Source: Ectocarpus siliculosus (Eukaryota > Sar > Phaeophyceae > Ectocarpales > Ectocarpaceae). From it: DNA of 64,000 bases. The notes below the pieces were generated by a model. The model saw nothing but the letters and a program-made list of their open reading frames with translations. It was not told where the DNA came from and searched no databases. Location of the stretch: the NCBI GenBank assembly GCA_000310025.1, contig FN649733.1, forward strand, positions 4,418,417-4,482,416, in the 5' to 3' direction. Each line of letters starts with the position of its first letter. Position 1 is the stretch's first letter. A program made the translations under genes and the position numbers. Of the stretch, positions 3,714-58,900 are shown one piece after another.

Positions 3714-6700
3714 TCAAAGCTCTCCTAGCCTGGCCAACACTGCGTACGCCTCGCCCCTGGCGTCGACTACCTCCAGCCCAGAGCCCTGCAGCACCAGCTT
3801 CGGCAAGGTAAGGGTCTCCATCCCCTCACCCATCACGTCCACCACGGCCGACCCATACCCTCCTCCTCTGCTGCCGCCCCCGCGGGGAAACGTCTGCACG
3901 CAGCTCGCGGACACGTGTCCCGCTCTCGAGGAGCAGCTTGCCCTCCCCGCCGCCGCCGCCAGAGCCGCCCGTGCTTGCGCGAGGGCGGGGGGCGGTGCCG
4001 GCCCTACGGCGGAAGCCAAAGCGCTGTTGCTGTGGCCACCAGACTGACCTGAGAAGCTCTGGGCAAGGAGTACGGGGGGAGGGGGGGAGCGAGGGTGGTG
4101 GTGCGCTTATTCTCCCTTATGCATGGCCATACATGTAGCAACATGTCCGCCTTGCGAAGTTCAGGAAGCCAGGACAGAGTTCGTCCGGGAAATGCAAGCC
4201 TTGCACCAGGAGCAAAGCTTGGCGAGGGGATCAAAGAGAACGGACATTGCAATAATTTGGGTGTTCCCTTTTCGACACAGCGCCCAGTGTACGCCACTGC
4301 GGCGATTGAGGGCGCGGTGAAGTTAGAGTCAGTAGTCACTCGTACTCATCGGGCCTGTGGCGTAGCTGGTGCATCAGCGCTGCGTGAGGGCACGCATAAC
4401 ATGTTGCTTGGTGAGAAGAGCGCTGGGTGCGAGAGGATGAAGGTGTGGGAACTCGCTTGTCGCCGCTCCGGGGTTGTGCAACGATTAGCCTGGTGTTCTT
4501 CGGGAAGTCAAGTTACATACCAACCTGCGCGATGCTGTCATGCGAAACAGATGCGGATGAAACATGTGCACACAGCCGTGTAGAACATCGACCGTTATCT
4601 TCCACATTGTTTCGGACTACAAGCTGAAGGTTTAACTGAGGAGCTAGCTGCTGTGATCAAAACACAACTTTCCTCTTACCACTGGGCCGTGCCGCCGGGC
4701 GGCCTCCTCGATGCCGTTCCTGGCGATTGTGGATATCTTGAGTAGCTTCACCACGTCCTCACCATCGAGAAGCACCAAAGCCTGGGTCGGGAACCCACGC
4801 AAGGACAAAAAACAAGGAAAGAATGTTCACTCGGAATACAAACAAGGAGCGCTGTCTTGTGGTTTTGAACAACTACAACTGCAGTCGTGCTGCTCCCAAG
4901 GAATGCTGGCCCTGGGCCTGGACAACTGTCTGTATGCTGTGCCACATCAGGCGCGGAAATAACTCATTGCATCGGTATCATGCCGTTATCCGTGTTTCCT
5001 CGATGGGCTTCGACGAAGCTTACGGTCAACGCGCCAGGGCAGCGTCCCTTATTTCAGGTACAGACACTACACGCGTTGGAGTGGCCGGTAATCACACTCG
5101 AGGACACTGGCGGCCAGATTCCTCTGCCCGAGGGAGTATCGCTCCCAATAAACGGCACCCAAGTGCCGGGACTACCCACATGATACATTCGACTTGGTCG
5201 TGCCATCACCAACCTTTGTTGCGCTATCCTTACTAATTGATCAATGGGGGGACAACCTTTGTGATTGTGAAGTGCTCTATGGATAGGATACATGTAGACG
5301 GGCTTGACGCTGTTGCCCCCCTTCCCTGTACCTGTGCGGTGCCGTCATCGATGTTGGCCGAGCCCTCCCAGCGCACTTCCCAGTTCGAAGACACATCGCA
5401 CCTCCCCCAACACCGACCGAAGGAGAGGTCCTTCTCTCGGACCTTTAGTTGACGGCACATCCACAGAAGTTACACAGAATATAGATACCGGTATAGAGTA
5501 GATTGTAGGGTTGCCGAACGTCATGTATATGCAGTAGTACGTTTTTGGCTGATGGTGTATTCCACCCAAGTACATCAATCTTTTGCACGGCGGTGGCCAA
5601 AACGTTTCTGTTGCAGGGAGTCTATCTGTGCTGATGGTACTACAGTATCGTCGCAAGCACGGTGCCCTTCTCTCTCCACCGACCAAGAAGGCCTACCTAC
5701 AGCAGTCACGCAGGGTCAAAGTTCTACGTTTGTGGCGGTGTAGTCAGGCGGCAGGCGCAAGAGGGCTGGGTGTTGCAAAACTCACCGGGCCGCAGTTCTT
5801 GCACCAGGTAGCGGCTTTGGCAAACCTGACGCAGACGACAGAGAGGCAAGAGAAATTTGTTGTTGCACGAACCAATATCCCGTGCTTGAACATCGTCCCG
5901 AGCGTGGGGGATGAACTCGAAGTAGCCCCCGGTGCCTCCATCGCCGCCGGTTGTTGCGACACTGATCTTGGTGGCGCTCTCAGAACCGGTTCTGAAACCT
6001 GTCCTGGGAGCGTCTGCTCTGCCCACGTCGATACCTCTTTTGACGATGCTTTCGGGATTAGGTCCATACCGAGATCTCGAACAGGCGCAGTCGCTGTACG
6101 ACGACCAGCCGAGGTGTTTTCGCGTGACGAGAGGGGGGACGGTGGGACCGACCCACCCCCGACTCTCGCTCGTTTCCTAACGGCACCGCCGTTTCCCCCG
6201 GGGCAAGCCCATGACCTGGCAGCAGCGTCCGCAACACTCGCACCGTTGTCGCCCCCATCGCAACAAATAGTGTGGTTGGGTGGGGGGGAGGGAGGCGCAT
6301 CCGCGGGGTGCGTGTCGAGCAAGACCACGCGCCCACCCCTCGTTGCTCGAATCACGCCGCGTCCGCTGGCCATCACCATTGGATCCACGCTCTCATGACC
6401 GCTACAACCCCCACCCCCACTGCTCCCGCGTATTCTTTGGCAAGTGTTGATCCCGCTGTGGTCGGCGTCGTCCCTTGCAAATGAGGTTACCGGTCTGGTT
6501 CTGGGTCTAGGGAACAACAGCAGGGGGGCTGACGACGGACTGTGTCCAACTCCATCCGAGCGGACAGAGTCGTCGGAGGAATTCATAAAGGTAGTGCTGG
6601 CACGGCCGCCGCCAGCTGCTGCTGCTGCTGCCGCTGTCGCTGTTGTTGCTTGGCAAGCTGGTACGGGCATGGACACGAGGTGTCCTGGTTCATGGCCGAG

Positions 6701-9700
6701 ACGGGTGGTGCTACTGACCCCCCGCACTGACGGGGGATGGGGAGGAGCTGACCAGCCCAGCGCAGGGAGGTTCTCCGGTGGGGGAGGTAGTGCAAGAGAC
6801 AGAACCTGACAAGTAGGGACAAACAAAAGACGGGAAAAAACAACACCAATGACAATGGACGTGAAAAATGGTGCAGCCGAACAACAGCAACAACAAAAAC
6901 AGAAGCAGAAGCAGAAGCAGAAGCAGTCAAACAATGACGGCAGGTATCGACAGAAAAACAGTGACAAGCTATCGGAACAATTCGAGGGCCGGGAGTGCCG
7001 GCGGTTTCGAGGGACGTAGCGGGTGTTTCAACTGCTTGGAGTTACCCAGTCGCGTGTCAGGATCTACAAAAGATTATGTGCACATGCACCGGGACCGCAT
7101 TACGGCAACGTACGAGGTGCTGCGGGAGCGCGTACACTGACATGCACACAACAGACTTGCTTCATAGGATACAACAACAACAGCAACTGCACGAGCAACA
7201 GGACATGCTCGCCCTCACCCGTACGGTCCCGCCGCCGGCTCTAGCCACCGCCAGGTAGACGCTCTTGCCGTTACCAGAGAGCCTCCTGCAAACTCCTTCC
7301 ACCTGAACACCACGTCAACAGTATATGGGGAAACAGCAGTGATGGCCGTGGGAATGGCACGGTCAACAAGCGCCCACCAGCTCAATTTCTCTAGGCGGAA
7401 ACAATCGTAGTCACTATTGTAGTGTTCCTGAAGGCGGTGGCAACAAAATACATCACGTTGCAGGGCTCAGGTCAGGAAACCTTGCAGCGATGCAAAGTCC
7501 CACGATGTCGAGCCGAGCCACACGCCACGCTTGCGACTACCGCCACACCGCCACAGATCGGACCAGGGTACGTTTGTGGGGAGCGGGGACCGCCTGGCGG
7601 GGTCATCATCATCACCGTGCTGTGGCAGAGGAACGAATGGCCACGCAGACGCAGCGGCCGCATCCTACCAATCCAAACATTTCTGTCATCGAGTCCAGGA
7701 AAAACAAATATGGATAAGCGCCATCATATCTAACTGCATTGCAACAGCCACCTTGGGTGCGTATTGTATGTCCAGCCGCATGTCCATGGCTGCGCATAGA
7801 CAGAGTCTCTGTCGTTGTGGCCTCGGCGTGAGAAGCTAGGAACACCCATCTTCGTAGCACCTTCCAAGCTACAGCACCGCTCAAACAACCGCCACTCACG
7901 CTGAGCCGCCCGTCAGCACCACAGACATCACCTGCTGAAAAATACATCACCACACAGCACCAAGAAGGACGAAGTCCCACACGCTCAAGAAACACACCTG
8001 TACTGTACAAAACCCCGGAACCATCCCCACGGGCCACGCCTCCGGGGAAACCCCGAGGTAGACGCTGATCTTGTCCGCGGCGTGCTCCAGTGTCAGACAA
8101 AGCTGCACTCGCTCCTCAGATAGCACCTCGAACATGTCTACTTCCGACGTAGTGGATGCGCCTAAATCGCCTGCGACATAGCAGGTCGCCATGGTGGTGT
8201 AGAGCTGTGAGGCGAAATGGACTCCTGCGTCAGCTCACACCAGTGGTGGCATACTCCTGCGTCTTGCGGGAGGGGGGTTCGTGCAAGTCGCGCTTTTGTT
8301 TCTCAAGGTACCGTGCCGCTTCGTAGAAGTAACATCACACCCTGTTGCTCTGCGTGTGGCACCCTTCTTGGCATCGTTCCGTCCCACCTGATCAAAACCA
8401 TATCATGGTACCAGTTGAACGCTTGCAAGAGGCCAGCGGATTGCCACCACGATGCATACAACCACGAGGGAGCGGTGCGTTGTAAATGACCTCTCCCAGT
8501 ACCCCTTTTACGTCCCCTTCCACAAACCTTTGATGCCGTGGCCTTGGCCCTTGACAGCAGTCACCGCCGCGGGGAGGGCCTTCTGTCGTCGACGTCCGTC
8601 TCCTCCTCCATCAGCAACGGTGCGAAAGCCTACATCTCGTAGGAGACCCCTCACCACCATCGACTCTCGCTCGTGCCCGGAGGCGAGTTTTGGTCCCCCC
8701 GGGCCCCCGCCTCCTCGCCTACCTCTCCTATCGCCCACACCGCCGGAGCTATCGGTCGCTGAGGAGGACGCACCGGCCGCAGCTAGCTGGACGATAAGAG
8801 CCTCGCTCACAGAGAGAATCCGTGGCACTAATGGTCTACGCGGGGATAAATCTCGCTCCTTCTGCTTGCCTGTGGTGCCTGACAAAGCTGTTTGCTCGTC
8901 TTCTCCCGAAGTCGCTCCATGATGCTGGTGCTCAAACCCGAGGTTTGTCCCAGCAGCGGCATTGACGTAGTCGAGGCAGTGTCGTTGGTTTGTCGCTTCG
9001 TCTCGCTTGTTCCTTTCGATTCCGCCGCTAGCACTCTTGCCGCCGCTGCCGCTGCTGCTTTTGTTGCCACTCGTTCTGCTGTTCTTGCCGTTGCTCGACC
9101 TGGGCAACAACGACACGTCTTTCGCCTCCACCACGAGGTAGCTCCGCATCAGAAACCTAACCCCATCAACGGCCCTAACCGTTTCGCACGGGATTGTATA
9201 CCCAACCCCCTCGGCTGTGTCGCCTGGGCTGCTGGTAGTGCGGGGTGGTCGAAACCCATATCGGGGGTACGAAGAGGCACCACCGCCGCCACCGACCCCA
9301 CCGCCCCCACCGCCGCTCGGGCTTGAATGAGTTGGTGATGGCGATGCAGTCTTCTTGCTGGAGGAGGTAGATGTTGGTACTCCGCCTTCAGCGACTGATG
9401 ATTTCGCAGTTGTTGCGGGTGGTCCTGATGAAGCCGCCCCTGCTAATGATGATGGGTCTTTTAGTGCCGAAATTGTGGCTGATGCCTTTGTTGATCTCGG
9501 CGACCCCGTGGGGCCGAGCACAACAACCTCCGTGCAGACGGCATACTTTCGGACGAGAGCAAGGGTTGCATCGGCAGAGACTCCAGCGTCCCCCCGCCCA
9601 GGATGACCTTGATCGCAACCCGTTTGACCTCCTCGTTGGCTGTCACCGTCAAAATCGTCGCTGTGTCTATCCGCTCCAGATACCACCTCCGCCAACTCCG

Positions 9701-12700
9701 GCCCGACCGCAACATCGACCACACGTGTACTCGCATGTGCGCAACCCACCGCACCCGTCGCCCCGCTCGGGCTGGAGGGTCGCGGCGCAGCCAATAGCAC
9801 GACTCTGGCCCACGCCGTTCGGTCTTCAAGCCACAGGCACGCTTGGTTTGATGCCAGCGAACTGTTGGTTGCCGCGTCGCTTCCACCCCGAGCCCTCGGA
9901 GACGCAGAGGAGTTATCCTTAGAACTTGGCCTCAGCGAAGGGACGCCGTGGATGCTTTTCTCACCGCTCGGTTGCTTCCGGCTCTCCACCGCTGCGGCAA
10001 CAGTATCAGGTCGCTCAGCGAGAGATGACTCCATCGTTGAAGTTTTGACTTCTGCTGCTGCTGCTGCTGCCGCTGCCGCTCCTGCTGCTGCCGCGGGTGC
10101 TGCTTCTCCTTTTGCTTGTTCTCTCTTATCGCTGCGCGGAATATGCAGCCAGACCAACAGGCCTTCTTCTCTGTCTGCTCTCGAGCCGAAGGGGGTTCTC
10201 ACCGTGAAAGTGGCGTTCTTCATCGCTCCTGCTGCTGATGTTCGTGCCATGGCAGTCTTTCCTCCTGTTGAACGGGCGTGGCTCTCGCCACCGCCACCGC
10301 CACTGCCGCCGCACAGAATCGACCGCGACATGATTGATGGCACGATGTCGGCAGCGTGCTCAACTGCCACCTGAAGAAGGGGTCAAAACGGTTGGCATGC
10401 CACCAGCTTCTGTCGGAAAAACAAAACGCGGGCCGCTTTCACATCCATTCTCCTGACAATGAAGGAAGACGGGGGATCAACCAACTAATGGCTTTACCTC
10501 TTAACGGGATCGAGCGCTAGCCAACGTGAAGGTAATCCCCTGCTAATCAGGTGGTGGGATATTGGTTAATGCGGGGTGAAGATGCGCTGTACATGCACAC
10601 CACCTGGTGGCGGCCTGTGGCGGCCTATGCCCTCTTCTTTTGCTTCCTCGGCGACTAGGGCCTTGTTCCTTCGCATGGCTTTTGTGGAACCAACTCCTGT
10701 TGTTCGGCATACTGTAGGTTGACGTAGTGGTTTCGTCCACAAGTGCGGCAGAATACCGCCATTGTAGGCATGCCTCCTCCATGACGGCATCAACTGCGCT
10801 TGACACTACGTGCCGTTGTTCACCTTGTCCCCAACTCCTAGCTTACCTCAAGGGATTCTGAAAGAGGTCTCGCGGCGGCGCGCAGGACTTCTTCGGGAGA
10901 AGGTCGACAGGACGAGCAAGAACAACAGCAGCTCGGGCGAGAGCAGTGCCCATTCGCGCCACCGCTGCAAATTTCGTCTTCATGAGAGTCGCCATGCCAG
11001 CCTTCGTCGGCGCGTTGAATCAACATGTCGTCCTAGGAGGGGCGCGGTAACGGGTATGGGGCGCGCGGGGAGGGGTGAAGCAGCAGACGAAGCAGTGGCG
11101 GAAGTGGCGGCAGTCATGGTAATCGCAGAGCAGCAAAGCGTGGCAGCGGTGAGTGTCAGAACCAAGCCACCATAGATGAGTGTTTCAACAATGTTCATGC
11201 CTAAAAGAGTAGAGGCAGTACACATTGTAGCAGTGCACATGCAAGTGATGGCCTTTCGTTGTCTGTGCAGTCTTCACGTAGTAGATGGCAATGTGAATGT
11301 GAACCACGACAAAATGGGGGGGGGAAAGCGTGCCACTGCTGGCAGGCATTGGGAGCCACAACATAAACCATGTGTACCCACACCAGTGTCTGGCACACAC
11401 AAGCGTGGAGACGCCACCAGCGAATAGAGCTCACATCTGAAAGGATATGTGCCTCTCCATCGCTCCCGTCTTCCGCCGACGTGGAACCACTGTATCCCCC
11501 CTCGTAGCCCCCTTCTCGGTAAAACCCCCTCTTGGGTGTCTTGGGTCTCTCTTCTTCCTGGTCACGTTTGGTTGGCATGTTCCTCCGGCACGAGCCGCAG
11601 CCACTGCTGTCCTGGGCCGGGCCTACGAGATCTACGAGATCTACCGGATCTATGATGCCGCAAACGCCAGGCGGGTGGTTCAAAAACTCCGCGTAAACGT
11701 CCCTGTATGGTCCGCGAAACAACGACAGCAAGTCAGAGAATTGGCCCCGGCGAATGGCAAATGGAGCACGGGGGGCATCGGCACACCATGTCATTTTCGG
11801 TACCCGTGCTGTCAGCAGTGGGGTCATGCACGCACCACACGATCGCCCCACACAACGCGGGTCAGATCACATTTCACTCATGGAACCGGCGATTTCACAT
11901 TGAAGGATCGTATGTAAGGGTGGGTGTGATGTGAGCGGTCTACCCTGCGGGCAGCTACACAGAGAGGGGATCGTGTAGATGGCAGAGACAATGTACTATA
12001 CTATGCTGAGGTGTTGGCCTTCCATGTAGTGACAGTTTTAAGCTTGGTGGATTAACGGCCATCTGCGGGTACTCTAGGCTCGCTCCTAAGCCTCACTTCT
12101 ACAAGTACCCGACCCGACCTTGACAAACCTACTTCTCCTCAGCTTTACCTCCGTCGACATTTTCCGTGTCAAACATGTAAACCTGGTACCTTGTCGGCTG
12201 GCTATTTCGTTATTTCCTCCCGACCTTGACGTTCGGCTGCCTGGCCCCTCCTCCCTCTCATTCTTCCCTCTCTGCATTGGCAAAAAGTGATTATATATTG
12301 TTTCCCATGAGACCACCACTCATTCGTGTACCCATGTCTCTTACCTCTTACGCAGTCTCATCGCCCTCATATCTTGTCCGAACACCCACCGACACACCCT
12401 CTCTTCCCACGTCGCGGCCATCGACACCCCCCATGTCAGTACGTCTGCCCCCGCTGCCGCTGTGTCTGTTCCGCCCATCTTCTCACCACCACTCCCCGAC
12501 CCGCCTCCCCCAGCCATTCTTTGACTTGATCGCGACCTAGACAATTGCCCAGCGGTGACCAAACCCGAAGGCTGGAGAGGGGAAGGAGAGGGAGAGGGAG
12601 GATGCCTTGGCAGACCAGTGCCGGTAGCACTAGCACCGCCAGCGTTGCCCGCTGCCGCTGCGGTTGGGCCTCGAGGAGACCCGGAGGAGGAGGAACTTGA

Positions 12701-15700
12701 GGAACACGGTGTTCGTCGACGGTGATCATCGCTGGTACCTGAGGCAGTCGAAACCGCCACACCGAGAGGGGTTGTGGAAACGGTGACCCCAATCCTGCTC
12801 CTATCGAACTGCTGTTGAAGGCGCTGATGTTGGTACCGCGCCTGGTGCTGGTTTTGATTTCGTATTTTTTGCTGCTGCTGCTGCGCCCGGAGTTCTCTCC
12901 GCAAAAACACTGCGTTGAACGATTGCCGCCAAGCGTGTACCGCGAGCGGGTGAGGGGTAGGTCCTCCTGTGAGCGGGCGATAGGAGGCGTTTTCACCCAG
13001 CGGGGAGAACCGCAACACCTGGTGTGATGGAGGGGGCGGGGTGAACGAGGATCAGAAACTGACTTTCAACCTATTCAATACGTACTGTACTGTACTGCGA
13101 TTTGAGACGCGATTTCGGGATTTCTCCGCAAGTGCGTTCGTAACATCTCTAATCGTCCGTCTACCGCCGAGTCTGCCGTCAAGAATAACAAGAACTCCGT
13201 CGTTTCACTGACTCGAGTCTTTAGGCTCAACCCATCGTATGAGCTGCACGCATTAAGCGAATACCGTTTCGTTTGCGCCGAAGAAAAACCGGCGGTGAGT
13301 AGCCCTGGATTGCCCCACAAGGTCAGGCGTTATCGAAATACCAGGTTAGGCTAGGGATATCGGACCAGTCGGTCAATCGTTTCCTTTCATACAAGTAGAC
13401 AAAGATAAGACGGATCGATCATCAAGTTCTTCATTCAGATCGAAAATTGCCGCGAATATCAGCTCACACCTGCACGGTCGTCCGAAGGCAAGCCCCCAGA
13501 CCAATCAGCGTGGCCCCAGCGTACACTGGATGCACGTTATGCACCCTGACGTTGGCGCCCCGCCTGATAGGCCACAGAGATGAAACGTCCCAGTGAGAAA
13601 GGAAGATGGTTTGCACGAGATGCGAAACGTGACGGAAGAAAAAGCGAAATCAACGCCGAACAGTGCTCGGTCTGACGTCAATTTTTAAAACCCACGCAAG
13701 GACAAGGCGGTTGGGTGTACACCCAGAGAAACCAACCATTGGAATATCTCCACGCGTCATCTACCGAAAACTTGGAAGAGCTTCGGGGTCCCGTAGAGCT
13801 GAGCCGTAGCTGTAGCTGAGGCGAATGACGAAGGGGGGGGGGTTTCTTCCGCAGGTTTCTTCATATCCACGGTCTTCACGGTAGACGAGGAAAAGGGATA
13901 ACTGAACCCTCCCCGTGGGAATTACTAAGGCAAGCACCGCAGGAGGAAAGGTCGGGCGTTCAAACAAAATGAAAAAAACAAAAAAAACTGCGTGACCTTC
14001 CTCCCGTGTGACTCATGCTGACGCGTTACATTTCCATTTGTATACCGCGAGGTGTTTAGACTGGCCCCAGGATATATGAGGTGAACATACACACGAGCAC
14101 TCCACCTATCTATCTCAACAGATCTCTAGACAAAACAACTACTTGGGTAACATCTCTTGATCTTTCTTACCTCAGACCCGCGCCTAGGGACGAGCAGCAC
14201 AGGTGCTGCAGGTACAGGTTGATTCCTGGCCTGTCTCTGTCTCTACCATTGCCACCATCGAAGACGTACGTCCCAGCCTGGACAACGACGTAACACCAAC
14301 CGGAAAACGTCTTGAGCTGGCTCGTAAGAAAAAGTGTGACTATTTGAGCCGCCTAGGTTCACCCTCCCAAAGGTCGCTCTCCCCACGTTCTGCGGTTTCT
14401 GCACACCACTGCCAAAAGACCCCGGCATCGTTTACTTTTGTCCGCCTAAAGAAACAAGACATGGCAACTGTTCCACCAAGAGAAACACCTTGTGGTAGCG
14501 CATGTATGACTTTTGTCCCGCAAGCATGCACACATGCGCCTCCCTCAAATCGGGGAAGAGGCTACGCGATCTCCTCCTCTCGTGTCCCCCTACCTGACTG
14601 CCGAGCCCTGTGATCGTCCCCTCGTAGGTCAACACATGTACACCCCCACAGACCTCGTCCCCGCCACAGCTGCCGTCACCATCGCCGTCACCGTCACCGT
14701 CACCATCGCCAACAACGCCTCCCGCGTTACCACCACCGCCAACACCGACGTCACCACATGTTCTCCCGTCGCCACCGCTGCTGCTGCTATCCGTGCTGTC
14801 ACGGCCTTTGCTGCTGCCGCCGATTGCGTCGGTGCCGCTGCCACTACTGCCGCCCGTGACCCGCCTCCTCTTGCCGCTCCCTGCTCGTTGCTCGGCATGT
14901 CGGTCGTTTGGTCCCGGTATCGACTCCACCGTTTGCGTAATCCTCGCTGGCAATTCGTCCGCTCCGGAAGATGGAGGCGCGCTCGCGGTGGTGGATTGGG
15001 AACGGGAATGGGAGTGCCCGAGTGCCAGGGTATCGTCACCACCGTGACCATCATGAAAATCACTGTTGCCACCGGGTCCCGAAACACGCACGTCCACCTC
15101 GACGAGGAGCTGCCGCAGCACGAGGCACGAACGCGAACAAACCAAAAGCACACGGATAAGAGAGTTGTCAGACAGAACAACAGCGAGATATGCCGTAGAG
15201 CGCTGTAACGTCGCTAGCTTAGGAGCTAAAGCATGATAAAATAACGACAAGCACAGGGTAGAGGCAAGCGAAAGTGATAATTGGGAAAATAAATGAACAG
15301 CAAATCTTCGACTAGTGGGCGGGACGAAAAATTGTTCAAACACATGGGATGCGAGTGTCAAGACTTTATCAAAGTATGAATCACAGGAGGAGCCAGGCAT
15401 CACAGACCAGTAGCAACATGGTGAGAGCAACTGACGAAGCTCTAGCAAAGGCTTGCCATCACAATTGTGGCACACAGTCGGGTGTGAGCAACGTATTCGC
15501 AGTCTACGGCCTACGTCAACAATATCCAGGAGGATCCTAACAGCTAAGTTCATCGTTTGGGATCTCTAGGTCAATTTGCTTGTTGAGTGTCCAGGAGCCG
15601 CAAAGCACGCGCCTCTCTCCCTTTCCTTCCCTGCCGCCCCTTTCCCTTCCATCTCCCCATCAAACCTTGGCGCTGGCGTCCGCCAGTACCAACGACTTAC

Positions 15701-16985
15701 TTTTACCTACATTGAGGTTCACCAAACTGCGTATCTGCACGCAGTCAACATCTTGAAACAACCCACGTAGGTGTTCAGGCCCGCCAGCAGCTATGGCCGC
15801 ATACTCTTAAACTGAGCCATCTCCCTTGTGTTGTACTGTTCTAGGCGGACGGTTCATCCACCGGTTCTAGGCATCTACCGGTACCTTCATGCTCGGTGGA
15901 CGCATTGTACACCAAAAATGTCACACCTCCTCTGGTTAACATCTCCCATCGTCTCCCACCCACCTGCGAATGAAATCACAATCGCTCAAAGCGGTGAGCT
16001 CCCGAATGTAACCTGTACACATTCGCTCGAAGGAATCAAACCCACCTCGCGTCTCATTCAGCTAATTCACTCGTCTAGAGACAACGATAACGATAACAGT
16101 TGCGCAATAAAGCCTGCTTGCCGCAAGGCGACTCAAACTGCCGAAAGCTCTGTTCGCCGAACCAGCCTCACCCGCTTAGCCTTTGATGTCCCTCCAGCCC
16201 CGCCCCGCCCGTCAGATCGCGCACCATCTCCGAAAGCTCTGTAGGTATTGCCAGGCATACCGGCACTGCCGCCGCCTTTGCTACGGCGGCTCCCACCAAG
16301 CACAAACACTCCCACCTGGGGAAACACGAACGTCTTTCCCGGCACGAGAAACGCCTGCCAGGACAGACAGCGCTGCCCGTTCAGCACCAGCATCGCGATA
16401 AGCTCTGTACGCTGCTGCTCTTCTCTTTCGCTTGGCGGAAGTGTCGTCTGATTCTGGTGCTGCCGGTGCCCGCCGTTATGCTTGCCACCACCGCCGCCGG
16501 TAGCACCACCGTAGCCACTTCCTTCCCTGCCCTCACCTCCATCGAAGCCAACACCATCACCACTCTCCGCTCCCGAATTCGGTGCGGAATGAGCGGCGGC
16601 GGGGACTGGCCGCTGTTCGGCCACGGGAGCCTGTGGGGTGCTTCTTTGCTCACCCTGATCGCCGGCACCGGAGGCTGCTACTGGTGCACCGGCATGGTCA
16701 CGGGAAGTGGGGAACGGAAAAAGAGCGGAAATTTCTTCGGGGCTTCGGCAAATTCGCGATGTTCTCTGCGCCTCTGGAGGAGAGGAAGGAGGGGGAAGGG
16801 GACGACGCGGGCCCTCTGGCTGGCGCCGTTGCTGTCGCTGCTGCTGCTGCTGCTCCCGCTGTTCCGATTGCAGGGTTTGGTATGGTTCCGCTTGTTCGAC
16901 TTCCACCATGAAGAAGGGAGAGGCGTTTTTGAAGCGGATCACGGGGCTAACAGCCGCGACCCTGGCCACGACGTCAAATGGACCC
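3714..16985 (-). CDS. CTC1: CTC1-like CST telomere-complex subunit, resolved 3' exons
   Basis: Candidate homologue of the large subunit of the CST (CTC1-STN1-TEN1) single-strand DNA-binding complex, which protects telomeres and recruits DNA polymerase alpha-primase in the nucleus. Exons in transcription order: 16985-16316, 15109-14594, 14352-14171, 13243-13096 (weak), 13018-12487, 11808-11435, 11032-10847, 10370-8528, 8224-7998, 7302-7219, 6805-5786, 5442-5332, 4781-4680, 4058-3714. Every junction has GT-AG borders and matching phase. OB-fold-like segments include VARVAAVSPVIRF, CLSWQAFLVPGKTFVF, VHVLTYEGTITGL, ISVYLGVSPEAWPVGMVPG joined to VEGVCRRLSGNGKSVYLAV, and a C4 zinc ribbon (CKNCGP, then GRCWGRC) followed by ANIDDGTAQ and ALVLLDGEDVVKLL. 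The order and motifs recall CTC1 C-terminal OB folds. RPA70 DBD-C is the alternative, but the multi-OB layout fits CTC1 better. Ser, Gly, Gln and Ala runs separate the folds. Identification rests on remembered family patterns. Confidence 0.65.
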
Positions 16986-17660
16986 CTGCGCAAAGTCAAG
17001 ACAAGAGTAGGTCAAGCATATGCAGGAACAGCACGTTCTTGGCAACATTAGGTTGATGAGTAGGAAACTATGAATGAGTCAGATATGTAGCATCGACAGG
17101 AGAGGATGTTTTACTCACAAATCCAATACTTCGGAGGGCAAAACCGAAAACAGGGACGGGGGGTCGTCAGCCACAGTAAACGCAGCAAGGGCAAGCACAG
17201 CAAGCAATTTCAGCAAGCGAGACAACCTGGCAGACGGCATCGAATGAGCGTCAAATACCGCTTAGAACAAAGCATCACAAGCTGCCACATACTTAGGATA
17301 TGTCCAACACGAAGTGATCGAAACGTTATTCGGTCGCGGTCTTACCGAACACAACGCACAATCAAACTCAGTGGAACTCCAACAACATCGCCATACCACA
17401 CACCACACACCACACGCAAACTCCAAGGAACACAAACGGTCTTTCAGACCATGGCGACGTTTGAATACCGAGCAGAACATTGTCACGTTAGTGGTCAGGC
17501 GACTTTGGCATGCACCCAGTGCCTACGTGCCCCCTCTGTTGTATTGGGATGCACTTCCTTCTTTCATACAGAACAAACAACACCAAATCAAGCGATGGTT
17601 CGCACCGGTCGTTCCAGGAACTTCACATATTTGCGAGTGGCGGGAATGAGGCAGACTAAC

Positions 17661-20173
17661 CTTCCCTTGCGGCCAACGAACGCGTCAAGCCCTAGCGCGC
17701 CTTGAGCCAAAACGTGTGACAGCGTCGGCCTCTGCGCTGATGCACGTGGTACGTAGGACCACCCAAGGTTGCTCTCCTGCCCACCTCTCCCCCCTCCAAC
17801 TGCTGACCCTTGAACTTCTCCTTCTGCTCGCATGCCTTCGTCGCTGCTTCTACTGACACCATCCCCGGCGACATTGCGACGAACGCCATTGATCTTGTCG
17901 CGGCTGCTGCTGCCGCTGCTGCCGCACCCGTCGAAGCCGTCCGCTCTGGCTGTCCTGTCGTTGTCGTCATCGATGCCGTTGCCTTTGAAAGTGTTGTTGT
18001 TGTTGGTGGTGGTGGTCATGTTGGCATTGTGCTCGTCTTCATGAGCGAGATGGCACATCTCGGTTACCTCGAGGCAGGCAGTGAAAGAAGGAAGTGGAAC
18101 ACGCGAAGAAGAAGAAGAAGAAGAAGAAGAAGAAGAAGAAGAAGAAGAGAGACGAGTCCCTCGCCCGATGCTATGAGGCACGTCTCTCTCTCCTCGTGCT
18201 GCTGAGCCCGAATTATGCGCGCGGGGGGTGGGGGGAGAGTTGCTCGGACAGACATTCGGAACGGTAGAATATCAAGGAAACACCCTGCGATGCATTGAAT
18301 CCGGATCGATATCTCCACAGCAGAAAAATGCTAAAGGAGACAAGGGATGTATCTGCGAATGTGTCGTCGATAGCTGCCCGACCACCACATTAACCCTTGA
18401 TGTTTGGCTATCTGCGCGCCGTCACACGGGAATTGATACACGTATGCAGAAAAATACGGTTATCTTCTACTGCCTGTCGCCTGTGTGGGCGATTTTCCTT
18501 GGAGGGGACAAATCTGCTGTAACCCACACAACGAATACCACCACACAAAAACACACGAGTTATCTTCAACCACCAAAGACGCTACGGCAGGTGCAGCCCC
18601 AATCAATCAATCCTAGTTTCCAACAAACACCCCATAAAATAACCTAAGGGGCATCACCGTCTAGATACCCCAGCGCCCCTCATATATGTGTCACTGCTGT
18701 TCGGGACCTCTTGAGCGTGGAGCTGATTTATCGCGAGAATCACACCGGACACGTTCCAATTGGTCATCTCTTGGAAATCTCACGCACTCTCTCCGAACAT
18801 CGCAACAAGCATGTCCACCTTGTACGTCACTCCCGTATCAGCTTTTAGCCACCAACCACTATCTGGCACCCTTGCCGACTACGACTACGATACCGACACC
18901 GACACCGACAGCAGCACTCTCTATCTTTCTCTTATCTCTTACCAGCGGTGGGCGTCTTGTCCCTGGTCAGCGTCCACCGTGACAGGCAGACTACCTGACC
19001 CAACCAGCTCGGCGGGGGCAGTGGCGCGCAAACCAGCCGCACTCTCCCTGGGAACAAACGAGTGCATCCACACCGTCAATACATGACCGTGATGTGGGTT
19101 TACGCCCAACGCCGTTGGCAGGCCTTCGTGTAATGAAAACGAATCAAGACCTCGTCCCCTATCCGCCAAGACTACTGTCCTTTTCACCAAGGTGAGGTTG
19201 ACGACACCGGTAAATTATATGTCGCTTCATGGAGATACACGTTGTGTTCCCCGCCTACATACTCATGTCTCAGGACCGGGCTCTACAGACTATTATATAG
19301 GGGTGGAAGCACGTGTAGACAGTAGTAAAGATCCTGACGACGTTCGTTGTCGCTGTGCTGTTGCGATCGAGTGTGCTTACCGGTTTCGTCCTTCAGAAAC
19401 AGCGAAGACACCGCCACGTCCCCCTCTCTCAGCGACTCAAACGACAGCACCCCGACCACCACCTCCACTGCTGCCGCTTTCCCTTCATCATGCCCGCCCA
19501 CTCTAGTAGCCTGGACTCCCGTATCTCGTGACATCGACGTCCGTTCATCTCGTCCATCTCGCCCAGACCGGCTAACGCCGTCACCACGCTGCCGTGCGGC
19601 CGTTGATGTCGCCCCGTGCCGGAGGTCGAGCACCTGGGATACGGTGATGGCTCTTGCGGCCCCGGTCCCGGCAAGGTGGTTTGTGTTGCTGGTCTCGTCA
19701 TCTGTGGTGAAGGTGGTAGTGTCGCGGGAATCTTGTTGCTCTAGCGAAAAGGCTTTGGCTTGCGCTTGCTGCTGCTGTTGTCGGGCAACCGGGCCATCAC
19801 TCGGCCTCCTTGCCAAGCTACAGTTGCAACCGCTGTTGATGTTGCCACCGCCCTCTACACCAGAAGGCCGGGAGCAGCGACAGCTGCGGCGGGATAGTGT
19901 GACGGAGATTGCCCTGAGGGCATGGTGCCGTGCGTTTGATACCTTCGCCACTGCCCGAGAACCTGTCAGCCTCTCCCCTGCTGCTTCCGAGGACGATGCT
20001 TTCGACGGCCTGTGATGGTGATGGTGTTGGTCATGATGTGGTTTAGGCTGGGGTGGGGGCATTGTTGTTAACGGAGCGATCGATGCCCCCGTGCGTGGTC
20101 GTTTTGCAACGGCATGGTGGACGCCTGTACCGCTGTTCTTTCCACTACTGCTGTGAAGGCGTCCTGGTTCCAT
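17661..20173 (-). CDS. CTC1: CTC1-like gene, tentative 5' exons
   Basis: Three coding blocks upstream of the resolved part. Block about 20173-19381 is rich in His, Ser and Gly and ends in an OB-like strand pattern VVVGVLSFESLREGDVAV followed by LFLKDETG, then a GTAAGC donor (phase 1). Block 19179-18943 reads TVVLADRGRGLDSFSLHEG onward and ends at a GTAAGAG donor (phase 2). Block about 18201-17661 starts with a poly-serine run, ends LGLDAFVGRKG, and joins exon 16985 in correct phase (2 to 2). Phases between the first and second blocks, and at the 5' border of the third, do not match, so at least one small exon or a different border is missing. The start codon is not fixed; the 20173 frame is open back to about 20,240. 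With these blocks the protein would exceed 2,600 residues, about twice human CTC1. Confidence 0.45.
18104..18148. repeat. (GAA)n microsatellite inside a coding exon
   Basis: About fifteen uninterrupted GAA/AAG triplets on the plus strand. On the minus strand they lie inside a tentative CTC1-like exon. They read as poly-serine (TCT) in the frame that continues to the 17,661 splice donor, and as poly-leucine in another frame that ends at a nearby GTAACC donor. Confidence 0.85.
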
Positions 20174-23700: not shown

Positions 23701-25989
23701 TGCACGCGGTTTGCTTGAAAAGACAACTATTGTACACCAGAAAACAACGCCATCACGCGGCATCGACAACAACATTAACAGCATGCCGAATTCAATGACG
23801 GCGCGGAGATACGCACGCAATAAAGGACCCCCCGCCCCCTCGGTGTTTGCCATCGGGATTGGGTATTCGTCGCTTGGCAACGACGTTGTAAACAAATCAA
23901 TTCACTTCGTGAACTCGGCAACCAGGTTACCGGGTTTTTTTTTACGTTTGGTTTTTTTTTTGGCGGTAACCATAATGGTGGTCGAGTAGATCATGTTGTG
24001 CGGGGTGGAGAACCCTCACTCCGCGCAAAGGGGGATGATCGCACCACGTTGTGTTGAAATGGTCAAGCATCCTCGAGGCAGTTACACAATGCTTATGACT
24101 GTCTCTGGAAATGAAAGCACCAGAAAATAAATTAAGTCATAAATTACGCAGCTGTCATCCGTACGCAAGGAAGTAAGCACAAGATGCCGAACACCCTTAG
24201 CAGGATGCAGCGCACCCTTCATGCGACTCGCCGAATACCTCACGGCGCTTCGCGCTTGGTGAAGTGAGAGCCTGGTCCAGTGAGAACCCGGCATGCTCCG
24301 TCCCGGCTTTGTAGGGATGCGAGGTCAATGGTCTAACGACTACGGCATGCACGACTATGAGTACACCCCCCCCCTCCCTATACATGTACTAGAAGCGCCT
24401 GGTAAGGCAGCGGTATCCACAATTCACATTTGCCGATCCGCATGTTGTACGTGGCAGTCTTTAACTCCATCACCAGGTGATAGCATTGCCGAGGAAAGCT
24501 TGAGTGTGTCCCATGTCCCATGAAACTTTGGGGCTGTTTCGATTACATGCTCGTGAGAAGAACATGGAGGGAGGAGGTGTGTGTCCACCTCCTCCCTCCC
24601 GCACCTCGTGCATTGAGTAGTTCGCATGGCCACATACGTGCATGCATACCCTCAAAAGTGACGTTTTCGAATCCTACACCTAATGTTCATACAGGACATC
24701 ATCACCGTGTCGCCGGACAAGCTGGCGAACTACGAGGACAAGATCAAGTCCTTCTTCGAAGAGCATATGCACAGCGATGAAGAGATCAGATACATCCTAG
24801 AAGGTAATGCAGGTGTTGGTACAGGTACAATGTAAAGGTTGAGAGCCCTCCTGCCTGCCGAGGACATGTAGATAAGGGTCATTCATTCTGGGAGGCGAGT
24901 GGGGGTGAATACATGTTGGCTCTGGTCCGGGTTGCGATATTCGCCACGATGATCAGGTGGTGCTTGTAGACGTGTGCGACTGCAGAAGGCGAAAGATACA
25001 GGTTGCAGGTGTTGGAGCGGGTGGATGATGAGGGCGTTGGATGTGGCGGTCGTTGTGTCCCCTTGTTACCCTTGTTATAAAGCTATTTCATACCTCTTGC
25101 TGTCCTTTCCGAGACCAAAGTCGCCTGCGCGCCGCGTAATGATGATGGGTAGCCTGCAGTCTAGCCATGCTTCCCACAGACCTAGCACATCAATGGGACC
25201 ACTACCGTTTCGTTTCGAGCCCAATCAAACTCACACCCCGGGTGGCTGCTCTTTTCTCTGGTCCTGCGCTCCTTTCGTGTATGTATGCATAATAGGCAGC
25301 GGATACTTCGACGTGAGGGCGAAGGACGAGCGTTGGGTGAGGATCAAGATGTCCAAGGGCGACATGATCACCCTCCCTGCCGGCATTTACCACAGGTTCA
25401 CGCTCGACGACACCAACTACATCAAGGTGAGGGACGCCTTGTCGTGTTCGTGTCTGCACCACGACGGGTACGACAGGCACCACAGCCACGGCGCGGACTC
25501 GTAGTGAAAGTAGTGAAAGTCTACATTTATTTATGCTTGAAATAGGATGTACTGCTGTAGGATTCACCGCTCGCGGAGGTGGTGCGTGTACGTGTCTTTA
25601 TTATTAGCATCGACCTCTCGCTAACCTGCTAACCAATGAAAAGACGTCAACCTCAGATCGGTTGAAATGTGTGTGTGTGTGTTTCTTGACACACAAATCC
25701 GTTGGAGTTCGGAGCAAAAGTGAAACACAATAATATTTTCTTGTATCAAGAGTCTTTTCTTCGCTGCCGGCCCCCCAACTACTGGATCACCTTGCTTGCT
25801 CTCGTTGCTCGCTCCTTCATGTCATGTATTTTCGCTTTTATTTCCTTCATGTATTTTTGTTTGCAGGCGATGCGGCTGTTCGTGGGAGAGCCGGTGTGGA
25901 CACCCTTGAACAGGCCGCAAGACGATCACCCCGTCAGGAAAGACTACCTGGCAAACTTCGCCACTGCTGCCGCCACTACCAAGGCATGA
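20722..25989 (+). CDS. ARD1: Acireductone dioxygenase (methionine salvage)
   Basis: Cupin-family metalloenzyme of the methionine salvage cycle. With Fe(II) it oxidises acireductone to the 2-oxo acid precursor of methionine plus formate; with Ni(II) it makes an off-pathway product. Five exons: 20722-20830, 23116-23204, 24695-24803, 25296-25426, 25867-25989; phases 1, 0, 1, 0 match at every junction and all introns are GT-AG. The product is 186 residues, close to the usual 180. It begins [20 protein letters not shown]. The metal ligands are His90, His92 and Glu96 (EEHMHSDEE) and His135 (AGIYHRF), all present. GSGYFDV and [11 protein letters not shown] are typical family blocks. The start ATG is the only one that gives the conserved EAWYMD N-terminus. 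No targeting peptide is visible, so it is probably cytosolic. Confidence 0.96.
20831..23115. repeat. Degenerate repeat array in ARD intron 1
   Basis: This 2.3-kb intron holds diverged copies of a unit of about 240 bp. One copy runs about 21,075-21,318, a second about 21,320-21,545, and a partial third about 21,888-22,110. Shared blocks include TGTACACCA..TTGGTGCCGT, GCGTTGCGACG.AATGCCTA, TCACACCCTGCAT..GTGCAC and CACGTTTG.TTTTGGTGTTGTTTT; the later copies also share ATCACGAAT, TTCGTCTACG and CTGCTGTACTGTAGTGT. Three copies of the ACTGCTGTA word (21,168, 22,004 and 22,093) sit inside. No transposase-like frame is seen. Confidence 0.65.
24566..24599. other. Perfect 14-bp hairpin in ARD intron 2
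   Basis: Arm GGAGGGAGGAGGTG (24,566-24,579), a 6-base loop, and its exact reverse complement (24,586-24,599), followed at once by a second small palindrome, gcacctcgtgc. The arms are pure purine or pyrimidine apart from one pair. It lies about 100 bp before exon 3 of the acireductone dioxygenase gene. Confidence 0.8.
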
Positions 25990-27761: not shown

Positions 27762-30700
27762 TTAAGGGCAAGGATCGCACCCGGAGCAAGAGCCACATCC
27801 ACGGCAGAGCTGTCCAAGGCCAAAGTCTGCGCATGACGAGACCAAAGATTCGGCGTACATGCACACGTGGGTGGAGCGGGCCGGGCGCGAAATAAGACAT
27901 GTGTATGCACGAACAAAAGCATGAAAACAAAAAAATATCGGGTTGGTGAACGAGTGGATCGGGACAGGGTTTTTTAGGGAGGGTTACGCCGGACTCTCCC
28001 AAAGGCTGCGGTGTGTGGAATGCTTTATCGACTGCCACTTAATGCTTGCACGTACACTGCCGCCACGAAATCAAGCCCTTGCGCGGGCACACATGATCAT
28101 ACGGCTTCCCCCGCATAAGTCACAGCAGCAACGGCACGGCGACGACACACTTAGAAGATATACATCACGTTGGGCATGGCGAAAGGCTGTGATGCAATAC
28201 CAATACTCACAGTTGCAGTGAGAAATGTCCTCGCCGAGGCAGGTGGGGTCGCACACGATCACCTTTCCGCCGCCGTCGTACATGGCAAGAGCTTCCTCCT
28301 GTACAGAGAGTTTACAGATGAAAGAAACACGTGACGAAACGAGGCGTGAGAAGAAGAATACAGACCACAACAACAGCGCTACGGCAGGCAGGCTTCGTTG
28401 CACTCATCCTGTACCACCAATGTACATGGAATGCACCTCTGTTGGTCGCGACAATCGCGCCAACAATGGAGGGTAGAGGGAAGTCAGGCACACATGGCAA
28501 GTAGCAAGGGCAAGGTGCTGGGCACGGAAGCAATGCTAAACCGACCCACGGCAGTTCACAGTCGCTTGTCCAGAACCAACTATGATAGGAACCAACCACG
28601 TTCTGCAGACATTGGCGCGAGAGCACACCTGTGCAGGAGAGATGTCGGCACACATGGCGATCTCCGCTTCGGTGCAGCTTCCAGAGGTCGTGTCTCCTCC
28701 CTCTCCCTCACCCTCTCCGGTCTGAGACGATGTCGTTCCTCCTCCCCCTCCCCCGCCCTCTCCGGTCTCCGACGATGTCGTTCCTCCTCCCTCTCCCCCG
28801 CCCTCTCCGGTCTCCGACGATGTCGTTCCTCCTCCCTCTCCCCCACCCTCTCCGGTCTGAGAAGATGTCGTTCCTCCTCCCTCTCCCCCGCCCTCTCCGG
28901 TCTCCGACGATGTCGTTCCTCCTCCCTCTCCCCCGCCCTCTCCGGTCTGAGACGATGTCGTTCCTCCTCCCCCTCCCCCGCCCGCTCCGGTCTCAGAGGA
29001 GGTGGTTCCTCCTCCTTCGCCCCCACCCCCACCCTCTCCATCGTCGATCTCGACAGCACGGCACTCGATGTCGAGACCAAAGGCCCCGCAGCCGTCCAGC
29101 ATTGAGTTCTCGTAGCAGTCTGGGTCACAGACCAGCTCCAGCCCATCGTTCTCGAGGGCAATCCAGTCCTCCATGGTGAGCATCTCTGTGGCCTGGTTGG
29201 TGTGGTCGATTGGGCCGACGAGAGTCCAGCGGGTAATGCACATATATTCAGATACATGTGGTATGGGTGATAGCCGGGCCTGAGATCGCCGTACATAAAA
29301 CTGTGCACACAATCGACGTCGGAAGACTATCGTGGGTGAAGGTGGGTCCGCCGTGTACTGCTGTAAAACGCAACACTTGCCTCTTCTCTTCGCCTTTACA
29401 ATCGTGTTCGGAGGACAGGATGGCGGGATGACACCTACTGCTGTACATCCAATCACACCATGTCATGGCGTATGCATACCATGTCTCATGTCTTTCGGCA
29501 GCAAGGAGCGGCTTAGAACTTGCCTATTATTCTGATAGGTGAGGCAGGAGTCCAAAAGAGTTGGTCAATTCCTTCCCGAGCTCTTTTCGATCGAGAGTAC
29601 AGAATACTACCAGTACTGGGGTACTGAGGGCAGGAAGCAAGAAGCAAGAAGCAAATCCTTACCTCCTCGCAGGGGGAGCAGTCGTCGAAGTCGTATGACA
29701 TGGACATGTCCGGCTCCGGCTCCGGCTCAGGAGTGGGCCCCGCGACTGGCATCACAGGCCCCGGCGTCGGGGGGGTTACCGGCATGACCGGCATGACGGG
29801 CTCCGGGGTAGGAGAGGCAACTGGCATCTGCGCATCAAAGCAAGCACAGCAGTGTGGCCGTGTCGGCAAACAAACAAGAAAAGGTGTGACCCAAGAAAGG
29901 CAAGCAAGGGGGGGCAGAGATGACCATGCCACTATTTGTGCACGGGCAGTTCTTGTTCGAACGACTTCACAGCTCATGTCCCGCACGACCGCATCCAGCC
30001 TGCAGGAGTACATCCTATGCACATCATAGGAGGTACCGGAATAACATGTGTGGGTGGGTGGATGACCGACCATCAGAGAAGGATAGGGCGCTCTGCAGAT
30101 ACTGCTGTACGACAAAAAATGTACAACATGCGATTTCCAACGTAAACGAGTCCTCAGTCACCTCAGGAGTGGGAGCAGTCACCGGCATCACCGGTTCGGC
30201 CGTCACCGGTTCGGCGGTGGCCGGTGCGGGAGTGGTGGACGGGGTCGTGCCGTCGTCATCGGCAGGGTCATCGTAAGCAGGGGTGCCGTCGCCGTCGTAG
30301 CAGGCCTTGCACACCACATCGAGACCGAAGATGCCGCAACCGGCGACCGGTGTTTCGGCACAGGTCAGGTCGCAGCAGAGGTACTGTTGTGGTGTTCGTT
30401 GGAGGGAAGGGCGGGGGGGGGGGGTTAGAATAAGTGGTAACGATACGCGGTAGACACGGGTCGCATGTATTATAGTACAACTCCGTGTGTGTAGTCCTTA
30501 TGTTCTACAGTAGTACTCTCCCATCCAACACGACGCACCGCGAAGAGGCAACCTGAGGTTCATGGGTTCATGGGCAATGAATCGATGTAATTGATGTCAT
30601 GATGTGGTGACAGACGGGCAAGGCGGGGGTGCGGGGCCGCCCTGCCTTGCTCGTAAAATGCGTTGATTGAATGCTGGGCGAAACTACGACAATAACTCCA

Positions 30701-55900: not shown

Positions 55901-58900
55901 TGCTGTTGCCTGGCCCTTGTCCCCGGTTCCGGTGTGGCAAGACGACGAAACTTGGCCCAACAGCATTCGCCGAGGACAACATCACGTTACGTTTGTCTTG
56001 TCTGTTTCTCGTTCAGTTTTCTGGGCAGGCGACCCCCTCGCCAAACGATCCGTGCAAGCTCTTCAACGTTTCCCCTCTCTTGTGTATCGATCTCGTTTCC
56101 GCAGACTTAAGAACGTCGCCAAGTACACGGGGTTTGCGGCGGCAATCCAGTTCAGCATTGTCCTCATCCCGGTGTCCCGCGACAGCAAGATCTGGTCGAC
56201 GATCGGAGTGCCTGTCGAGCGTGCCGTTCTCTATCACACAACGCTCGGCCACTTGGCCTTCGTCAGCCTCTTCCTGCATGGGATCCTGTACATGGCCTAC
56301 TACGTACAGAAACATGGCTGGGCGTACGCCGTGAATTCGTCGTTTCATTACAAGGGAAAAGGGGTTAACGTCCCTGCCGGTGTGTATCTTGCCAACTGTG
56401 ATGTGTCGTGCGAACCCCGATCCAACATGGGGGGTTGTATGGCCAGCTCTATTGGTGATTTGGTTTAGCTTCGCCGATAGTAGCGGAAGGGTGGATGATG
56501 TCCGCGGGACCGGGCACGCTGTCCCTATCTGTTTAGGCAAGTTCAAGCTGCAAGTCAGGACCATAGACGATGCGATCCAAGCAGGGTCGTTTTCCGTTGG
56601 CCTCGAACTTTGCCCTCCAGGTCGTTGGAAGAGCTATGAAACTGTCCTGAAAACTCCATGTCTTCTGAGCTCTTGGTTTCTTGTGTTTTTTTTGTGTGAA
56701 TTGTCTCTTTGTCTCTTGGTGACAGGTTTCATCGCCGGCCTTTGTGCCCTTCCGATGTGGGTCTTGTCGCTGCACTTCTTCAGGCGAGAGTACTACCGGC
56801 TCTTCAAGACGAGCCACTTTTTATTCATCGGTGTTTTCGGCGCCGGAATGGTCCACTATGACGGCTTCGTCCACTATCTGTTGGCCGGCTTCGTGCTGTA
56901 CCTTGTCCACGCGGTCTATCGCCTGGGTAACTGGAACTGGTGAGAGCCTCGCGCTTGGTACCATCGATATCTTGCAAGAACGGATAATAATTGTTTTGGG
57001 CGATTGTTCGGCAAGAGTTGTGGCGCCTAGCTATATGTGTCGGCCGATCCCTAGGTCATGCTCTACGAACAGGGCAGTCGTCAATGTCTGGGCTTCTTCG
57101 ATGGCGTGTAGATAATCCAGGAAGCCACCAGGTGATACAGAATAGTACCCGTTCAGAGGCAGTCAGTCAGTCAATCCGAGGCAGTTGGTATATCCTTCCT
57201 TGGGCGTCTGAACTCGTGTCGACTGATTGTAGGGTTTACTGGTGCTTCTGTGTGCTTAGTTGAGTGAAATACGTTGGGAGTTCGACGTTCGGCACTTCCT
57301 CATCGCTGCATGTGCACCGTCACCGTACATGGCAGCATTGTAATAAATGCTTCGGAATCAAAGACCTACAGTCCAACCGTTACAGCTCGATAAGTGTCCC
57401 GAAACTTGCGGTGCCACCGCCATGTCACGAAACCGAAGTGCTTTTTTCCTGGAGATGTCGTGCAGCGTACCTTTAGGGTTACGGTTACGACTCGAGTTCG
57501 ATACCTCCCATGCCTGTGCGAAAATTCAATTTTATTGTGTTCGCTGTTGCTCTTTCAGCACACCCCTGTGCTACATTTCCAGCCTGTGCTATATAGCCCG
57601 ACTTTCCAACTTTAAGCGTACGCCTCCCCCGGTTGCCGCTACGGCCCCTGTACCATGCCGTCATAACAACAGGTGGAGTGTGCTCAGGCAGTGCTTTTGC
57701 AAGAGTTCAGCTAGAGGTTGCGGCGATTGCGCTCTCGTGCACCTCGAAGCAGGGGACGGGTACACGCGCCTGGTGCTGCGCAACCCTAGCAACCACAGTC
57801 CGGCCAAAGGAGGCACATTCGTGTACATCAGTGTGCCCGCACTCCTGGGCACGATTGAGGCCCACCCCATGTCTGTGGCTCTGCGAGGCGCCCCGCCACA
57901 TCTCTGGAACGCCTCGTTGGACGACGGAGTCTTCACGCTATGTGAGAGCTCTACGAGCATGTCACCGTTGTACCAATCTTGGTTGATTTCTGATGGGTGA
58001 TGTGAGAACAGTGGTGTACGAAACACGTGACCAAAGTTCGTGATCTCCCGTGACTCGTTTGTTGCATCGCTCGAACTAGATCGACGAATGAAATAGGAAC
58101 GTGTGTGGTCGTTGCCCACCGCTGTCATGTAGTCGGTGGTACAGAATACTTGACGCTGTGTGATTGTAAGCGAATCGAGCAATCAAGCTACAAATCGATG
58201 TGAACTCTCACCTCTCCTGACATTAAACCGCTAGAACGCGAACAAGCATCACGGGTGCGAGGAAGGCAAAGAGTTTCCGAACGGGATGGGCTATGGTCTA
58301 TGGATCCACGCATAATCGGATTTCGACGGTTCGGGGACTTACCCCGGAATCCTCTCAGAGCGTCCTCCCCGGGAGGGGCAGTACGATTTGTTTGGGAGAA
58401 GCGCACGCCGACGAGACATTCATCTGTCGTACCCATGCCTGATCGCACTGCGCCACGTCTGGGCACTAGCACCTGAAGAAGTGGTGGTCCACAATCCTTT
58501 TTTCTGAACCTCGTCTGTCGCTTCCGAAAATTAACAGACATTAAGACCATGGGCTCATGGACGCTAGCCCTGCAAAAGCAGGAAAGTGACAACCTCACCG
58601 TTCATGTGGACGGGCTGTATGGCGGTGCACCGTCGCTGGCATCCATGAAACAAGCGGGATTTCCAAAGGTGGTTTTGTTTGCAGGCGGCAGTGGCGTCAC
58701 ATCCTTCACGGCTCTAATCCAGGTGATTGCCGAGTAATACTCTCTTGCAACTGGCTACGGATGACCCGGACGCAATATTACAACTTGCATTTGTGTTCTA
58801 TAGCCGCCAGTTCATGGCTTGCGTGGGCGGCAAGCGGTATCGTAAATCAGAACGCGATTTGAAACTAAAACAACAGTCCTGTTCGACGGCATGCCGGAAT

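Follow-up and report, generated by a model that had tools for sequence, protein, structure and literature searches.

We analysed a window of 64,000 nucleotides from the genome of the brown alga Ectocarpus siliculosus (assembly GCA_000310025.1, contig FN649733.1, positions 4,418,417 to 4,482,416 of the forward strand; coordinates given without a contig name are those of the window). On its minus strand lies a multi-exon gene that very probably encodes a divergent form of CTC1, the large subunit of the CST complex, stretched by low-complexity inserts. CST (CTC1-STN1-TEN1) is a single-strand-DNA-binding complex that caps chromosome ends. CTC1, its largest part, carries STN1 and TEN1 and binds to the G-rich overhang; it restrains telomerase and recruits polymerase alpha-primase for C-strand fill-in. 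The gene runs from an ATG at 20173 to a stop codon ending at 3714, the same ends that a first-pass annotation had given. That annotation had counted 14 exons, whereas the model built here, in which open frames were connected at recognisable splice sites, has 18, with GT-AG borders at 17/17 introns and intron lengths of 133-1206 nucleotides. The spliced coding sequence of 7740 nucleotides specifies 2579 amino acids and contains a single stop, the terminal one. The exons thus join in phase as had been claimed, with the restriction that the splice sites were picked so as to preserve the frame and that the in-phase joins are therefore no independent evidence.

In the N-terminal part of the protein, exon 1 (19381..20173) carries the start codon, a low-complexity leader and the first strands of block A, one of nine blocks (A to I) that were compared with human CTC1. 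Exon 2 (18943..19047) continues block A with a SWLG...W motif and, together with the end of exon 1, corresponds to human CTC1 132-164. A low-complexity linker occupies exon 3 (17661..18201), whose acceptor at 18201 is uncertain, being one of 22 in-frame AG candidates and picked by eye. It is followed by exon 4 (17119..17226), which has a negative codon score in every forward frame. The 3' end of exon 5 (16316..16985) forms block C (LSWQAFLVPGKTFVFPQ); joined to the beginning of exon 6, this block corresponds to human CTC1 269-288. Exon 6 (14594..15109) itself holds a low-complexity insert and the YEGTITG motif (residues 901-907) that begins block D. Further strands of this block, AGTYVFDGG and RGANVRVHNVH...LGACLRTTVQ, are encoded by exon 7 (14171..14277) and exon 8 (13470..13563), respectively. 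The initial residues of exon 9 (12345..13018) close the match to PF15489, the Pfam family of CTC1, and are followed by another low-complexity insert.

The middle of the gene consists of exon 10 (11435..11702), placed by the spliced model and the codon model, the cysteine-rich, low-complexity exon 11 (10847..11032) and the long central exon 12 (8528..10370), which presumably contains middle OB folds and large inserts, matches no family and ends in a weak donor (GTTTGT). Exon 13 (7998..8170) carries the GMVPG block (motif at residues 2017-2021) and exon 14 (7219..7302) the RRLSGNGKSVYLAV strands. Exon 15 (5786..6805) contains an insert and then the first half of a putative zinc ribbon (CKNC), the second half of which (CWGRC) lies with DDGTA on exon 16 (5332..5442), so that the four cysteines fall within residues 2389-2409. 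Hence all three motifs highlighted in the first-pass annotation, YEGTITG, GMVPG and the C4 cysteines, are present in the spliced protein. Exon 17 (4680..4781) adds the ALVLLDGEDVVKLL strands and, with exon 16, covers PF15489 positions 1013-1067; exon 18 (3714..4058) encodes the C-terminal tail and the stop.

The coding character of these exons was assessed with a leave-one-out codon model: each exon was scored on the basis of all the others, and the introns supplied the background. Among the three forward frames, the called one came out on top in 17 of the 18 exons, the exception being exon 2, and the long exons 1, 3, 5, 6, 9, 12, 15 and 18 scored clearly in it. Scores in the called frame were 15.9 for exon 9, 11.6 for exon 10 and 102.1 for exon 12. 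Since stop codons occur in the introns at a frequency of 3.7%, the open frames of the long exons are beyond chance; for a frame of the length of exon 12, p is ~1e-10. The gene, predicted from these open exons, is the only copy found in the genome (189 Mb in 492 contigs): a core query of 339 amino acids gave 12 matches at E<=10, and all 10 with E<0.01 lie inside the window.

The identity of the protein was studied by scans against 24,736 Pfam families with a report limit of E<=10, where the HMMER filters lose most matches above ~0.1. For the full spliced protein the sole family reported was PF15489 (E=0.0015, 16.6 bits), which aligned residues 896-985 with profile positions 293-377; a piece of 130 amino acids around this match gave E=3.4e-4 at profile 294-378. 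When the low-complexity inserts were removed by eye, leaving a condensed protein of 1010 amino acids, PF15489 was again the sole family and matched in two stretches (E=2.9e-5, 22.3 bits). The condensed C-terminal part alone (319 amino acids) likewise reported only this family, weakly (E=0.14), at profile 1013-1067. Human CTC1 aligns to the same profile over its residues 61-1201, and the N- and C-terminal matches thus occupy corresponding positions and follow the correct order. Reversing the condensed protein abolished every family match. Human RPA1, run against the same library, matched PF08646 (1.5e-59) and PF16900 (3.8e-37) and not CTC1. For calibration, human CTC1, a true member, reaches just 19.1 bits (E=0.001) over residues 112-180 with the second CTC1 model, PF15491, which we take to be the plant-type model. 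A CTC1 of that type would share the family with the Ectocarpus protein; it differs in that neither the full nor the condensed window protein reported a match to PF15491.

Direct comparison with human CTC1 (PDB 7u5c_E, identity confirmed) located the most similar part of the two proteins near the N-terminus. In an open local comparison of the nine blocks with human CTC1 and RPA1, using 400 shuffles each, blocks A, C and D landed on human CTC1 in the expected succession (132-164, 269-288 and 355-435). A restricted test was then applied to five of the nine blocks with 5000 shuffles, its target regions being fixed after the sequences had been seen. Here the score was reached by 1/5000 shuffles for A, 16/5000 for C and 1/5000 for D, and by 0/93, 0/100 and 0/91 other human CTC1 windows, respectively. 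From human domain boundaries we presume that A lies in OB-A, C in OB-B, D in OB-C and I, the zinc-ribbon block, in OB-G. Blastp, too, matched weakly, its best piece, obtained with filters off, covering human 291-418 (E=7e-4), and the top two hhalign matches were weak and in order, while a global hhalign alignment gave no useful result. The cysteines CKNC...CWGRC precede DDGTA with a spacing from CxxC to DGTA of 38 residues, compared with 36 in human CTC1. The two proteins are alike in how blocks A, C and D are ordered (human 132-435), in this spacing and in PF15489 matches near both ends. They differ in length, the window protein being twice as long (2579 versus 1217 amino acids), in its large low-complexity inserts, in low identity and in a middle part that remains unmatched.

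Other components of telomere maintenance were searched for in the same genome with profiles, exon by exon. TEN1 (PF15490), a CST partner, was recovered as a separate gene outside the window, on a different contig: two adjoining exons on the minus strand (C17:4172285-4171530) matched above the cut-off with E=5.7e-7 and 1.8e-6. Joined, probably across a GC-AG intron, they gave 111 amino acids with 79.3 bits and E=2.2e-22. Besides TEN1, RPA3 (PF08661) was reported weakly for this protein (E=0.029). The first OB domain of POT1 was found at C20:463434-463186 on the minus strand (E=6.4e-12). Matches to the RNA-binding domain of TERT exceeded the cut-off twice on the plus strand of C23:724288-726873 and once on the minus strand of C240:28261-25669, and the two sets may reflect either another copy of TERT or a contig of the other haplotype. 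TTAGGG, a telomere repeat that is common in other groups too, gave 82 + 64 matches on the two strands when searched as five tandem units (146, overlapping matches within an array being counted separately) versus 0 + 2 for the reversed pattern; TTTAGGG in five tandem units had 0 matches in the genome. Among the matches listed, some TTAGGG arrays sit at the ends of contigs or close by, and many are interior (e.g. C56:47-94, C17:5803292-5803339). Ectocarpus telomeres are described as TTAGGG (PMC11541908), and the repeats of this genome are in keeping with a brown alga.

Several results weigh against a CTC1 at this locus. Every Pfam score stayed under the gathering cut-off of PF15489, the best one, 22.3 versus 27.8 bits, being obtained after inserts had been cut by eye. 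Block A alone, the GMVPG piece alone and the zinc-ribbon piece alone matched no Pfam family, and the middle exons matched none either. The PF15489 profile, searched through the whole genome exon by exon, gave no match, although such a long model may be missed in this way. PDB searches with three pieces returned no chain at E<0.5 and none that was relevant. Six of the nine blocks (B, E, F, G, H and I) did not fall at the expected place on human CTC1 in the open comparison. Two of these, G (5/400 shuffles) and I (8/400), scored fairly well out of order, at human 382-415 and 838-870, which is a warning on how much any single block can show. The restricted test gave no significance for the GMVPG block (H) against human LGLLPG (464/5000 shuffles, 25/92 other windows) and a weak result for the zinc-ribbon block (I; 141/5000 shuffles, 10/91 other windows). 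Whole-sequence phmmer against human CTC1 gave 1.4 bits, a score exceeded by no fewer than 5 of 2001 decoys. As to the gene model, the called frame was top of all six frames in just 13 of the 18 exons, a reverse frame outscoring it in exons 2, 4, 11, 13 and 16. Finally, STN1 was not found in the genome by the profiles PF09170, PF10451 and PF01336 or by human and plant STN1 queries; an exon-by-exon search of an intron-rich genome can miss this gene, and its absence is therefore not shown.

Candidates for STN1 came from four of these queries. PF09170 (E=1.34) and human STN1 (E=0.19) each led to a candidate with an internal stop, and the plant query to one of E=0.35 over 32 residues; none was accepted. 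Eight PF01336 matches were likewise turned down, since by eye they resemble aminoacyl-tRNA synthetases and one RPA1-like exon. PF10451 had no match in this genome, nor in the control genomes. The full CST complex proposed for this lineage in the first-pass annotation is thus borne out for TEN1 and not for STN1.

A gathering cut-off is a curator's score threshold and not a feature of the protein, and the CTC1 assignment is accordingly kept as a strong inference rather than a database-grade assignment. Furthermore, CTC1 had been named ahead of any search, so that the multiple-testing burden is below what the E-values suggest. Judged by sequence similarity, the N-terminal blocks are a well-supported match to human CTC1, the zinc-ribbon block is a weakly supported one and the GMVPG block is not supported. 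The name proposed at first pass is supported in that PF15489 was the sole Pfam family and was reported separately by both ends.

The closest competitor would be a multi-OB protein of replication or recombination, RPA1-like or otherwise, that is not orthologous to CTC1 and has a generic C-terminal zinc-ribbon OB fold. RPA70 is itself a multi-OB single-strand-DNA binder whose C-terminus is a zinc-ribbon OB fold, and three of the nine blocks (B, F and H) scored slightly higher with human RPA1 than with human CTC1, the RPA1 score being reached by 32, 222 and 44 of 400 shuffles. By the first-pass annotation, CTC1 was to be given up if RPA1 or some other OB protein matched clearly better; in the profile scans no RPA family (PF08646, PF16900, PF04057) was reported for the full protein, the condensed protein or the scanned pieces, in contrast to the human RPA1 control. 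In addition, a separate exon at C16:740464-740336 resembles the DBD-A domain of RPA1 by eye (PF01336 E=8.3e-5, PF18161 E=0.24, both under the cut-off). We consider an RPA1-like origin very improbable.

It is very improbable, too, that the 18-exon model wrongly fuses two neighbouring genes whose separate OB proteins make up its N- and C-terminal parts. Such a fusion would be favoured by a model predicted from genomic DNA, by middle exons that match no family, by the poor donor of exon 12 and by exons 11 and 13, for which the codon model offers no clear support. Pieces of both ends nevertheless report PF15489 at corresponding ends of the profile, and exons 9, 10 and 12, which connect them, are clear in the called frame. 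A decayed copy or a chance assembly of exons without a functional product might be suspected from the very long inserts, the uncertain acceptor of exon 3 and the frame-preserving choice of splice sites; with long exons open far beyond chance and no second copy among the genome matches, we give it almost no weight. A divergent CTC1 remains the reading that we prefer.

By homology, the CTC1 protein would bind the telomeric G-strand overhang and assemble with TEN1 and an STN1, the latter being the one component that the genome searches did not recover. It would then end telomerase action and recruit DNA polymerase alpha-primase, by which the C-strand would be refilled.

Elsewhere in the window, an acireductone dioxygenase exon (PF03079, E=3.1e-20) is located at 24953-25504 on the plus strand, i.e. 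opposite to the CTC1 gene and past its 5' end. A ferric-reductase-like transmembrane segment lies at 56335-56943 on the plus strand (PF01794, E=2.4e-5, 24.8 bits, below the cut-off of 28). On the minus strand, an open frame at 28536-29462 consists of tandem Glu/Gly-rich repeats like TTSSETGEGGGEGGG and has no Pfam match at E<=0.01. In the searches concerned with the CTC1 gene, six single open frames scanned against Pfam yielded no CTC1. The first 351 amino acids of the condensed sequence had no match in NCBIfam, and an IMG/VR search with the 339-residue core gave one pattern match, with no relative confirmed.

CTC1 diverges very fast, and its presence beyond well-studied groups is hard to establish. 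Among the matches listed from the open-licence literature, no title or abstract start reported a CTC1 in a stramenopile; an automatic annotation of this gene may already be present in public protein databases. The gene is best read as adding another putative member to the known CTC1 family. Section 7 of PMC9371972, a paper of 2022, treats the array of OB-A to OB-C as an expansion specific to metazoans, by which polymerase alpha is docked. It is in this region that the best-supported part of the window protein lies, namely blocks A, C and D. Together with the weak match of human 112-180 to PF15491, these three N-terminal blocks suggest that the long form of CTC1 is ancestral. Whether the OB-A to OB-C array indeed belonged to a long CTC1 in the last common eukaryotic ancestor, its N-terminus being lost in ciliates and yeasts, is in our judgement evenly balanced. 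If the assignment is right, a long CTC1 together with TEN1, POT1, TERT and TTAGGG repeats in one brown-algal genome would extend CST-type C-strand fill-in to another major eukaryotic group. The window CTC1 could serve as a seed sequence to find CTC1 in other stramenopiles, and with it one could test if the N-terminus that docks polymerase alpha is of ancient origin or arose in metazoans.

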